Made by a program: the position numbers and the translations under genes. Of a DNA stretch of 64,000 nt, positions 15,399 through 38,994 are shown one piece after another. The notes beneath the pieces are model-generated. The model made no database searches. It was given only the letters and a program-made list of their open reading frames with translations, and had not been told where the DNA came from. The first letter of the stretch is position 1. Each line of letters starts with the position of its first letter. Location of the stretch: contig JAFGDS010000142.1 of assembly GCA_016931995.1 (NCBI GenBank), positions 1 through 64,000 on the forward strand, written 5' to 3'. Origin of the DNA: Pirellulales bacterium. GTDB taxonomy: Bacteria; Planctomycetota; Planctomycetia; Pirellulales; Thermoguttaceae.

Positions 15399-15451
15399 GG
15401 CGGGATTGCATGGAGTTTTTTGGTGAGGGAGTCTCGGTTCCCGCGTCGAAG

Positions 15452-15497
15452 AGGGACGGTCCCATTTTCGCTGACACGAAAATGGGGACAGTCCCTT
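15452..15497. repeat. Short palindrome, GGGACAGTCCC/ATTTTCG family
   Basis: GGGACGGTCCCATTTTCGCT and the complementary GAAAATGGGGACAGTCCC form a hairpin. The same family lies inside the alpha-oxoamine synthase gene (38280-38386) and near 19745. It overlaps the doubtful upstream start of the 14430-15398 gene. Confidence 0.8.
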
Positions 15498-15507
15498 CAC
15501 CGCGGGC

Positions 15508-16775: not shown

Positions 16776-18410
16776 TCAATGCGGACTGATTCGTTGGATG
16801 TCTTCGACGGTCATCCCGCCCAGGCTCGGCGGGCGATGGGCCGCGTCGGGCGGGGTTTGAAGGATGGCCGGCAGCGTGACCAGCGTGGCGGGCACGAGCT
16901 GCGCGGTCCAATTCTGGTTGAGCAGGTTCCATTGCTCCGAGATGCCCGGTCCCCAGGCAATGATCCAGTGGCCCGGCTCGGTCGGTTCCTCGTCGCCTGG
17001 GTCCGAGCCGTCTTCCGGCGGCGGCATGGGGATTTCGTGCCCGCCCATGTCGCCAAACGGCGGCGCCGCGGGCTCGGCCCAGTGCCACACGAGCCGCCGC
17101 GCGGGAATGAACAAGCGCGCCTGGGCGTAGGCCACGGCGTCGCCGTCGATCGGATCGCGGAACAACCCCGGCAGAATCTCGGGCGTCTTGGGCCAATATA
17201 CCACCGCCACGAACGAAAACGCCTCGTCCAGATGGGCGTTGCCGTCGTGCACCTCGGCCTGCTCCGTGCGGATGACGTGCGGTAGGTTCGTCGTGGGGTA
17301 CTCCACCTCGAGCAGATGCTCCAACTGCGCGCAGGTGAAGTGGCGCCACAGCCGGCCGAACTGGCCCATCTTCGCCTCGCGATCGAAGAAGAGCAGCGCG
17401 CGGTAGTTCCACTCGTCCAGGTGGCGTCGGCTCTGGTCTCGGCGCTCATCCCGCGCGCGGTCGAAAAATTGAGCCTGGTTGGCGACGTAGTCCATCACCG
17501 GGTCAATGACCGGCAGCGTCCGGGCCAAGGCGTCGCTTTCGTTTCCCACGGGCACGGCGGCGCCGCGCCACAGGACGCCGAGCATCGGCCCGCGGCTGGG
17601 GGCGGGACCCGTGTGCCGCGCGGCCACCTCGGCCGTGGCCGCCTGAGCCATGTCGGGAATCGCCGCCACGAGCGTCCGCTGGAACTCGGGAATCATTCGC
17701 TGCTGGAGGATCTCCTCCATCACCGGCAGGACCAGCTCGCTGGTGGCCGCGGCCCAGTCGCTCCAACGGCGCGCCAGTTCGGCCTCGCGGGGCGCTTTGG
17801 CCGCAATGGCCGGGCCGAGCCGCTGGAACTTCTCGATCGGGGCCCCCGCGAACTTCGGCGCCTCCGCCGCCCAAGCGTCGAGGATCTCCGGCACGTAGGC
17901 CCCGGCGTTGCGGTCGCGGGCCTCGCGCATGAAGGCCGTCATGGCGAACACGTCGAACAGAAGGTGGTTGGTGAAGGCCAGGCCGTTCATTCCCCGGGCG
18001 ACCATCACGCCGCCGCTTTGGGCCGCGGCATCGGCGGCGTTCTGCATGCGGATCTTGTCGTCCACGTGCCTGCCCGCGTTCATCACCATGCCCAGCAGCA
18101 TGGCCAGGAACAACACCGCGAAGACCGACAGGATGCTGATCGTGCCCCGCTGGTCGGCGTGAAGGCGTCGTGTACTCGCAAGAGCGTGAAGGCAGGTTCT
18201 TGAGAATCCTATCCCCTCTCCCTTTGGGAGAGGGTTGGGGTGAGGGTGTGTGCCACTGGCTCCGCCAGTGCGGAACCTACATTCCCCGAGCACTGGCGGA
18301 GCCAGTGGCACACGCGGCGTCGACGTACCCTCACCCCCGACCCCTCTCCCAAAGGGAGAGGGGAGAAGCTCGGTCGCGTTCGATTTGTCCTCAGTACGCG
18401 GTATGCACAT
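16776..18410 (-). CDS. TadG-like pilus-associated protein; N-terminus formed by repeat DNA
   Basis: The recognisable part begins LHADQRG-TISILSVFAVLFL, a leader and membrane helix of the TadG/TadE type. It continues NAGRHVDDKIRMQNAADAAAQ, which is typical of the TadG N-terminal region. A long, partly helical exported domain follows. No ATG, GTG or TTG lies in frame between this leader and the nested repeat at 18213-18364. The only in-frame ATG is at 18410 and overlaps the stop of the upstream gene by 20 bases. The first 71 or so residues (text such as NPLPKGEG) would then be repeat-encoded. Either the start was displaced by repeat insertion, or the gene relies on a GTG inside the repeat. Confidence 0.75.
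   Translation of the reverse strand: MCIPRTEDKSNATELLPSPFGRGVGGEGTSTPRVPLAPPVLGECRFRTGGASGTHPHPNPLPKGEGIGFSRTCLHALASTRRLHADQRGTISILSVFAVLFLAMLLGMVMNAGRHVDDKIRMQNAADAAAQSGGVMVARGMNGLAFTNHLLFDVFAMTAFMREARDRNAGAYVPEILDAWAAEAPKFAGAPIEKFQRLGPAIAAKAPREAELARRWSDWAAATSELVLPVMEEILQQRMIPEFQRTLVAAIPDMAQAATAEVAARHTGPAPSRGPMLGVLWRGAAVPVGNESDALARTLPVIDPVMDYVANQAQFFDRARDERRDQSRRHLDEWNYRALLFFDREAKMGQFGRLWRHFTCAQLEHLLEVEYPTTNLPHVIRTEQAEVHDGNAHLDEAFSFVAVVYWPKTPEILPGLFRDPIDGDAVAYAQARLFIPARRLVWHWAEPAAPPFGDMGGHEIPMPPPEDGSDPGDEEPTEPGHWIIAWGPGISEQWNLLNQNWTAQLVPATLVTLPAILQTPPDAAHRPPSLGGMTVEDIQRISPH
18213..18364. repeat. Nested palindromic repeat: GTGCCACTGGC element inside a CCCTCTCCC element
   Basis: Outer arms CCCCTCTCCCTTTGGGAGAG and CTCCCAAAGGGAGAGGGG enclose TTGGGGTGAGGGTG/TACCCTCACCCC. 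They also enclose a complete inner palindrome at 18250-18311 (GTGCCACTGGCTCCGCCAGT ... ACTGGCGGAGCCAGTGGCAC). It lies at the junction of the two TadE/TadG-like genes and is in frame with the downstream one. Confidence 0.85.
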
Positions 18411-19386: not shown

Positions 19387-19970
19387 CGAAACGTCCTCTC
19401 ACAACACCTCTCCCCACTCCCGCTCGGCAGAAGAGGATAGCAGTTCATCAAGAACACGGTTCATCCGACTCGAGAATCCGCGGGGGCTCTGCCCCATACG
19501 AATCAAGTTAAGCGGTTCCTAAATGACTTGGAGGAAGTGGGACATCCGCAGATTACGCAGATTGACACGGATTCACACAAAGCGTGCCCAAGTCCGCGAG
19601 AATCTGCGATATCTGCGGATGACAGCCAGTCTTTACAAAGGTCTCACAGGTCGCCAATTCCTTAACTTGATTCCTATGGGGCTCTGCCCCCGGACCCCCG
19701 GGATTTTGGAAGGCATGGCTCGGGTGTCCAATGGTTGCGTCCAAGGGGACAGTCCCCATTGGACACCGGAGCCATGCCTAAAAAAATCCTGCGGCGAAGC
19801 CGCACTTGCCTCACGACTTGTGGCTGGGTGCCATGCCCACGCTTGTCGTGGGCATGTCTCGGGAACAAACATGCTTGCTGTCTCGCTGCGCTCGCTTAGC
19901 AAGCATGGCACCCATAATGTCCCATCTTTGTGACGCGTCCTGTTAGATCGCCTTTCATTCCGACCGATTC
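19387..19970. repeat. Repeat-rich spacer within the Tad locus
   Basis: No gene is seen in this 584-base gap. It holds a CCGCAGAT/ATCTGCGG inverted pair (about 19543-19622), a palindrome TGTCCAATGG...CCATTGGACA around GGGACAGTCCCC (19719-19767) and a compound palindrome at 19826-19913. The compound one contains GCCCACGCTTGTCGTGGGCA and ends CATGGCACCC. The spacer separates the prepilin peptidase from the TadE-like gene. Confidence 0.75.
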
Positions 19971-37587: not shown

Positions 37588-38850
37588 ATGCGTGCCACCA
37601 CCCTTGACACCGTTCGCCATGGGTTCACCGCCATGCCCACCATGCACAGCCCTCCCGGCCCGTTCACGGTGATTGACGGGCGGCGGTATCTTTACTTCGG
37701 CGGGACGGGCTACCTGGGCTTGCAGGGCCATCCGGAAGTGATCCGCGCGGCGTGCGAGGCGGCCGGGCAGTACGGCATCGGAAGCGCCACGTCCCGGGCA
37801 GGCTGCGGCGAGACGCCGCCGCTATTGGACGCCGAACGCCGGGCCGCCGAGTTCTTCGCCGCCGCCGACTCCTTCTACTTCATGTCGGGCTACGCCGGAA
37901 ACAGCATCCTCGTGCTGGCCCTGCGGGAGGAGTTCGACGCGGTGTTCGTCGACGACCGGGCGCACTACTGCGTGGGCGAGGCCGCGCGGCTGGCTGGGCG
38001 ACCCATCGCGACGTTCCGCCACTGCGATCCGGACGACCTCGCCCGCGTGCTCAGGGAGCAACTCCCTGCCGGCGCCAGGCCGCTGGTGCTCAGCGACGGT
38101 GTGTTCCCGTCGCACGGCGAGATTGCCCCGGCGGCCCAGTACGCGGAAGTTCTGTCCGAGTACGTCGGCTCGATCCTGGCGCTCGATGACGCGCACGCCG
38201 TGGCCGTGTTGGGGGCCAACGGGCGAGGAACGTTCGAGCACGTGGGGTTGTACGATCGCGGGGTGAACGTCGACGGGGTCCGTGACGTCAAAGAAGATGA
38301 CGTCAAAGGGGACAGTCCCATTTTCGCCGAGACGAAAATCGGGACAGTCCCCGGCGCCAAAATGGGGACAGTCCCCCCGCGGCTCCTGGCCTGCGGCACG
38401 CTCAGCAAGGCGGTGGGCGGCTACGGCGGCATCATCGCCGGGGGGCGAGAGTTTGTCCACCGCCTGAAGGCCACGTCCACGTACTTCAATGGCGCAAGCG
38501 CCGTGCCGGTGCCCATCGCGGCGGCCACCACGAGGGCCCTCGAGCTGATTCTGAAGCAGCCCGAGCTCCGCGCGCGGCTTTGGGAGAACGTGGCGGCGGT
38601 GAAGTCGGGTCTTCGGGCGTTGGGGCTCGCGGTGGACGATTCGCCCGTGCCGATCGTGGGCTTGGTGCTCGGCGACGCGGACCACATGCGGCGGATCCAC
38701 GAGGCCCTTCGTGCCCGGGAAATCTATCTGCCCTATCGCAGCGGCTACGCCGGGCTGGGCGAGGCGGGCGCGTTGCGTCTGGCCGTCTTCGCCACGCACA
38801 CCCGCGAAATGATCGACCGCCTGCTGGCGGAGTTGGCGGCCGTGCTGTGA
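37588..38850 (+). CDS. PLP-dependent alpha-oxoamine synthase (KBL/BioF-like) with in-frame repeat insertion
   Basis: 420 residues. The fold-type I signature is present: FGGTGYLGLQGHPEVIRAA, YGIGSATSRAGCGETPPLLD, LSDGVFPSHGEIAP, LALDDAHAVAVLGANGRGTF and GTLSKAVGGYGG with the PLP lysine at 274. Such enzymes condense an acyl-CoA with an amino acid (2-amino-3-ketobutyrate ligase, 8-amino-7-oxononanoate synthase and relatives). Residues about 231-264, encoded at 38278-38386, are translated palindromic repeat (GDSPIFAETKIGTVP and KMGTVP), inserted ten residues before the lysine. The frame stays open, so a protein may still form. Whether it is active cannot be told. Substrate not assigned. Confidence 0.85.
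   Translation: MRATTLDTVRHGFTAMPTMHSPPGPFTVIDGRRYLYFGGTGYLGLQGHPEVIRAACEAAGQYGIGSATSRAGCGETPPLLDAERRAAEFFAAADSFYFMSGYAGNSILVLALREEFDAVFVDDRAHYCVGEAARLAGRPIATFRHCDPDDLARVLREQLPAGARPLVLSDGVFPSHGEIAPAAQYAEVLSEYVGSILALDDAHAVAVLGANGRGTFEHVGLYDRGVNVDGVRDVKEDDVKGDSPIFAETKIGTVPGAKMGTVPPRLLACGTLSKAVGGYGGIIAGGREFVHRLKATSTYFNGASAVPVPIAAATTRALELILKQPELRARLWENVAAVKSGLRALGLAVDDSPVPIVGLVLGDADHMRRIHEALRAREIYLPYRSGYAGLGEAGALRLAVFATHTREMIDRLLAELAAVL
38278..38386. repeat. Palindromic GGGACAGTCCC repeats inside a coding gene
   Basis: Three GGGACAGTCCC cores occur in about 90 bases, with an ATTTTCG...CGAAAAT inverted pair and a partial duplication of TGACGTCAAA at the left edge. It belongs to the same family as 15452-15497. 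It is 109 bases long, roughly 36 codons, with no stop in the gene frame. Confidence 0.85.
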
Positions 38851-38877: not shown

Positions 38878-38964
<87 letters not shown>

Positions 38965-38994
38965 CGAGTGTCGCGCAGATTCTTCGGGGGGGTA

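Follow-up and report, generated by a model that had tools for sequence, protein, structure and literature searches.

Palindromic repeats inserted in frame in a PLP enzyme gene belong to a new Pirellulales family of coding palindromes

Introduction

Coding palindromes have been described in Rickettsia and Wolbachia; the first Rickettsia report comprised 19 reading frames containing them, and a Rickettsia guanylate kinase with one of these elements (RPE) is translated and active, with an altered affinity for its substrate (PMC2229807). Likewise, intragenic REPs occur in several phyla, for instance in O. terrae, a Verrucomicrobium of the PVC superphylum, and many of them encode 20–30 residues, DNA polymerase I being among the repair genes that host them; the initial annotation of the locus reported here considered such coding repeats little described beyond Rickettsia, a view that does not agree with these examples (PMC3733652). 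Here we analyse a stretch of 64,000 nucleotides from a Pirellulales bacterium (the window), which contains a gene for a PLP enzyme with a palindromic repeat in its reading frame.

Results

The forward strand of the window contains an ORF of 420 amino acids (positions 37588–38850) that matches Pfam family PF00155 (Aminotran_1_2) with an E value of 8e-31, as well as the NCBIfam bioF and Kbl models with scores under their equivalog cut-offs. In particular, it reaches 225 bits with TIGR00858, where 426 are required for BioF proper; the insert splits this match, lowering the score somewhat. The product gives a fold match with Z ~46 and, besides the fold, contains the catalytic DDAH...TLSK lysine of the alpha-oxoamine synthases. 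As judged from sequence and fold comparisons, it is an alpha-oxoamine synthase (AOS)-type, or BioF-Kbl-type, PLP acyltransferase, an assignment that stays at family level with regard to substrate specificity. The source genome also encodes other AONS-like paralogues. The PDB homologues shown align up to residue ~224 and again from residue ~264, leaving residues 224–263 unmatched. Alignment and codon positions place a conserved block, PRLLACGTLSKA (38377–38412, forward strand), where homology restarts after the insert; the AAG at 38407–38409 encodes the PLP lysine, K274, and the TLSKA part of the block is near-invariant in a 40-sequence alignment. Right after the stop codon of this gene there is a long inverted repeat of a further family (GGTGCCACTGCTGGCTTGCCCAGCAGTG...CACTGCTGGGCAAGCCAGCAGTGGCACC, 38878–38966), and a similar sequence was found near L006.

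Within this ORF, the palindrome GGGACAGTCCC occurs three times, at 38309, 38341 and 38365. With up to one mismatch, it has 14 matches in the window, compared to 1.9 expected from shuffles, none of which reached 14. The array proper spans 71 bp (38306–38376), and its codons (38305–38376) specify residues K240 to P263, that is, ~24 residues. It starts with a 49-bp palindromic dimer (38306–38354, forward strand), in which two GGGGACAGTCCC palindromes flank a TTTTCG...CGAAAA hairpin and which scores 73.1 bits (E 2.6e-15) with a covariance model, R1. This dimer is followed by a 3' extension (38355–38376, forward strand) that repeats the right half in part and contains the third palindrome, CGCCAAAATGGGGACAGTCCCC; comparable extensions exist at ~11 of 107 copies of the element. 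The predicted fold of the array region has an energy of -30.8 kcal/mol (z -5.7). Upstream of the array, the target flank is directly repeated with a 15-bp period (TGACGTCAAAGAAGA / TGACGTCAAAGGGGA, 38283–38308, forward strand), with TGACGTCAAAG at 38283 and 38298, which adds ~5 residues; a tandem-duplication scan found flank duplications at 4 of 107 element copies and at 1 of 214 control stretches. The ORF reads open through the whole array, and K274 is 11 residues past the last repeat codon. An in-frame insertion of palindromic repeats, as first proposed for this gene, is supported; nearly all orthologues lack it, and its position is in a surface loop. Its proposed extent was too generous, because the array accounts for ~24 of the ~34 residues attributed to it (38278–38386), the 15-bp duplication adds ~5 and positions 38377–38386 belong to the conserved PRLLACGTLSK block.

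Exact matches to GGGGACAGTCCCC number 44 in the whole genome, a draft of 5.43 Mb in 153 contigs, and the reversed control gave none. Model R1, built on 17 copies of the 49-bp element, places it at ~110 sites in this genome and has matches in 34 of 100 relatives, with a very uneven distribution. The element exists in a minimal form and in longer forms (84–88 bp) with an internal loop. The copy in the PLP gene differs from its nearest sibling at 1 of 49 bases; a second copy in the window (15450–15498, forward strand, 66.8 bits with R1) adjoins a minus-strand ORF at its 3' end. The literature searched had nothing on this repeat, and Rfam recognized one tRNA and nothing else in the window. Other palindromes are also present. 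An inverted pair of the second palindrome, described below for the sister genus (CCCTCTCCCTTTGGGAGAGGG at 18214 and 18342, within 18209–18410), is found in the N-terminal portion of a minus-strand ORF of 544 aa with the peptide PSPFGRGVGGEG...PHPNPLPKGEG, whose true start may be downstream. Additionally, a MITE-like palindrome, GGCTC(C/G)GGTGTCCAATGG...CCATTGGACACCGGAGCC (19717–19773), has a GGGGACAGTCCC palindrome inside, and its arm retrieves 62 genome matches with variable interiors.

As many as 38 copies of the element lie inside ORFs whose two flanks are coding-like in one and the same frame, a call based on codon usage that may be mistaken for some of the weaker copies. Several of these inserts are backed by domain searches, namely those in DNA polymerase I (PolA, separating the 5'-3' from the 3'-5' exonuclease domain), dihydrolipoamide dehydrogenase (Lpd, in frame), DinG helicase, a GT4 glycosyltransferase (in a linker), an FtsX permease, which contains two copies, and an Eco57I-type methylase. 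The in-frame copies occur on either strand and use several frames, GDSPxFAxxKxGTVP being that of ~20 of the 38. Among the copies flanked on either side by confidently coding sequence of one strand, 17 are frame-keeping and 4 frame-shifting (p ~1e-5 against 1/3). Moreover, 55 of 94 copies (59%) are open in all six frames, compared to 28% of window 49-mers and 4% of shuffled copies; since palindromic symmetry adds to this openness, selection on the element itself for open frames is offered as a suggestion. In another genome, G021, 84-bp variants are in frame in ORFs that, by eye, look like NuoD (L347) and polyphosphate kinase (L349), and the flanks of L351 resemble MurD.

The spacing between DDAH and TLSK is 72 residues in the window enzyme and 32–53 residues in 70 of the 72 measurable homologues from named genomes, whose loops are 19–40 residues shorter. 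The loop is absent from the closest homologue, which is 59–66% identical by half. The two remaining homologues, both from species of one sister genus, have spacings of 80 and 116 residues, filled by a different palindromic repeat, CCCTCTCCCnnnGGGAGAGGG, with copies inverted relative to each other; the longer loop additionally contains two tandem repeats. This second palindrome has more than 100 copies in each of the two genomes, and a close relative of the longest-loop homologue has a loop without repeats. These spacings show that the loop is variable by nature, and unrelated repeats have entered it on at least two occasions. The orthologue comparison advised in the initial annotation therefore gave no conserved loop of similar length and other sequence, the longer ones being filled with repeats, and a position beside the active site is not supported as a special feature, the insert being in a loop that chances to lie nearby in sequence.

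The DinG linker of the window genome carries the 49-bp element, as does the same linker in two species of the sister genus (G020 and G021). Between the element-bearing genes of the last two, dN is 0.010 and dS 0.05 in the part after the insert (615 codons), a ratio of 0.22, indicating that the insert-bearing gene outlived a speciation under constraint. We rejected the shared DinG insertion as a proof of age, however, because the element DNA of G000 and G021 is far more similar than the silent sites next to it, and this makes independent insertion or gene conversion possible. A different repetitive stretch, GGGGAGAGGGGAGAGGGG...GGGGCGAGTGGCGAGGG, was seen in the DinG linker of G014 (L413). These observations suggest that the DinG linker collects repeats.

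The AlphaFold2 model of the window enzyme has a mean pLDDT of 91.8 and a pTM of 0.90, with values of ~40–60 in the insert, and its poorly determined parts are the insert (231–260) and the N-terminus only; the insert is thus predicted to be a disordered surface loop, with an intact enzyme core. In the sister genus, the enzymes of G021, with an 84-aa repeat loop, and of G020, with a loop without repeats, show dN/dS values of 0.009/0.113 and 0.030/0.227 on the two sides of the insert (ratios of ~0.08 and 0.13). Values for G021 and G019, both repeat-bearing, are 0.108/0.561 and 0.155/0.656 (~0.19 and 0.24). These low ratios indicate that a repeat-filled loop at this position is compatible with continued purifying selection. 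Pairwise ratios of the window gene with insert-free orthologues are ~0.2–0.45, long-term values spanning more than the branch after the insertion; the window genome is the sole representative of its genus in the comparison, and the divergence of 1 in 49 bases from the nearest sibling leaves post-insertion selection on this copy unreadable from sequence.

Tolerance and damage had both been contemplated at the outset, and the data favour the former, given a core predicted to be intact, a loop of variable length and purifying selection on the orthologues of the sister genus that have other repeats in this loop. Folding and function of the enzyme are probably preserved. It is unlikely, in turn, that the insertion damaged or inactivated it, the ORF being then a young, not yet decayed pseudogene: although the insert ends 11 residues ahead of the PLP lysine, seems recent with its one difference from the nearest sibling, and the AONS-like paralogues might make a dead enzyme survivable, the ORF has no stop or frameshift, its coding bias is preserved on either flank, the core is predicted to be intact and larger repeat inserts occupy the same loop in constrained orthologues.

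We give very little credit to a co-opted insert, whose repeat-encoded loop would be useful, for instance, in binding or regulation. The use of the GDSPxFAxxKxGTVP frame by about half of the coding copies favours co-option, but target-site plus codon-phase bias could yield a preferred frame, the loop sequence is unrelated between lineages and the loop, modelled with low confidence, is probably disordered. Least credible of all is an error of assembly, which a short repeat dispersed in ~110 copies over a draft in many contigs might invite, because both sides form one protein in one frame and align to the same orthologues, making a chimeric join unlikely, and because there are dozens of analogous in-frame copies and a like insertion in the DinG genes of sister species.

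With respect to mobility, the element has terminal inverted repeats, as do MITEs, with arms GGGGACAGTCCC[AC]TTTTCG / CGAAAATsGGGACAGTCCCC. No transposase or other mobilising enzyme could be assigned to it in this genome or among the genes sampled from relatives, and no empty site was found at the DNA level. A RAYT/Y1 transposase was discarded as the mobiliser, since this draft genome has 7 Y1_Tnp genes, some of them near contig ends, and none has a copy within ~1.5 kb; among 30 such genes from relatives, 2 or 3 are accompanied by a palindrome of distant similarity at more than 1 kb, none of these pairs being convincing. An unpaired GTAG (GTRG) end tag, typical of GTAG REPs, occurs in 1 of 100 copies. 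The combination that defines CGTC REPs (a CGTC, or TGTC/CCTC, tag, an 8–9 bp stem, a 4–5 bp loop and a CCA tail) was not found; the stems of the element, of 6 bp, enclose one base and form part of a larger hairpin, and CGTC at the 5' end is weakly enriched, in 17 of 100 copies as against ~4 of 100 control positions, a non-defining trait. An apparent recent burst of the element in G024 was also rejected, because the identical copies are passengers of a larger MITE with terminal inverted repeats GCGGCCGTCCA / GCGGCCGTCC and TWA (TTA/TAA) duplications; at least 20 copies of it (L245–L264) have an identical GGGGACAGTCCC dimer as cargo. Likewise, most element copies in G021 lie within a larger repeat. 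Empty MITE sites were of no use to define the exact junction, as the GGCTCCGGTGTCCAATGG family has variable interiors and gave no clean empty/occupied pair. The element may have spread by means of a transposase acting in trans.

Discussion

We consider it likely that a non-autonomous, REP/MITE-like 49-bp dimer inserted recently and in frame in the PLP gene, which encodes it as a tolerated, disordered loop. The frame would have been kept by chance and, the element consensus being nearly free of stop codons, the gene encodes ~24 repeat-derived residues. These probably make up a disordered loop at the surface, which follows the DDAH-GRGT segment and precedes the strand running to the PLP lysine. 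Genome-wide, frame-keeping copies would survive and frame-shifting copies would be purged. The insertion in the window gene was probably neutral or mildly harmful, because the loop is naturally length-variable. More tentatively, certain enzyme loops in the Pirellulales might be recurrent landing sites, with stop-poor palindromes as a continuing source of new protein segments; this reading, which we find possible rather than probable, covers the GGGGACAGTCCC dimer, the CCCTCTCCCnnnGGGAGAGGG dimer and the tandem runs that would have filled the same loop independently in different genera, with the PLP enzyme and, probably, the linker of DinG as examples.

The main added value of this case lies in two proteins in which the repeat that fills the loop differs from one lineage to another. 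For one enzyme, species with a repeat-filled loop can be paired with others lacking it, which makes tolerance directly testable by selection analysis and enzymology. Our results also extend coding palindromic repeats to the Pirellulales, with ~38 candidate in-frame copies in a single genome, comparable with or above the number first reported for Rickettsia (PMC2229807). For annotation, peptides of the GDSPxFA..K.GTVP and SPLPLGEG types are to be expected to be repeat-derived, and not functional motifs.

As with the elements of Rickettsia and Wolbachia, whose encoded peptide is tolerated, we found palindromic repeats in frame in conserved genes and missing from homologues. By description, the window element differs from them in its size, 49 bp versus 105–146 bp for the first RPE, and in being GC-rich, from Pirellulales and read in several frames on both strands. 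Intragenic GTAG and CGTC REPs are likewise dimers or clusters of short palindromes encoding 20–30 residues, DNA polymerase I included, but the window family is without the GTAG tag and has CGTC in just 17 of 100 copies; published REP families also have a core stem and loop unlike those of our element, for which we found no linked transposase. It resembles MITEs in being non-autonomous, in its high copy number and in its terminal inverted repeats, and differs from them in having no demonstrated target-site duplication or cognate transposase and in riding as a passenger inside unrelated MITE-like repeats. The 49-bp element is, in all, a new Pirellulales family of the already known phenomenon of coding palindromes.
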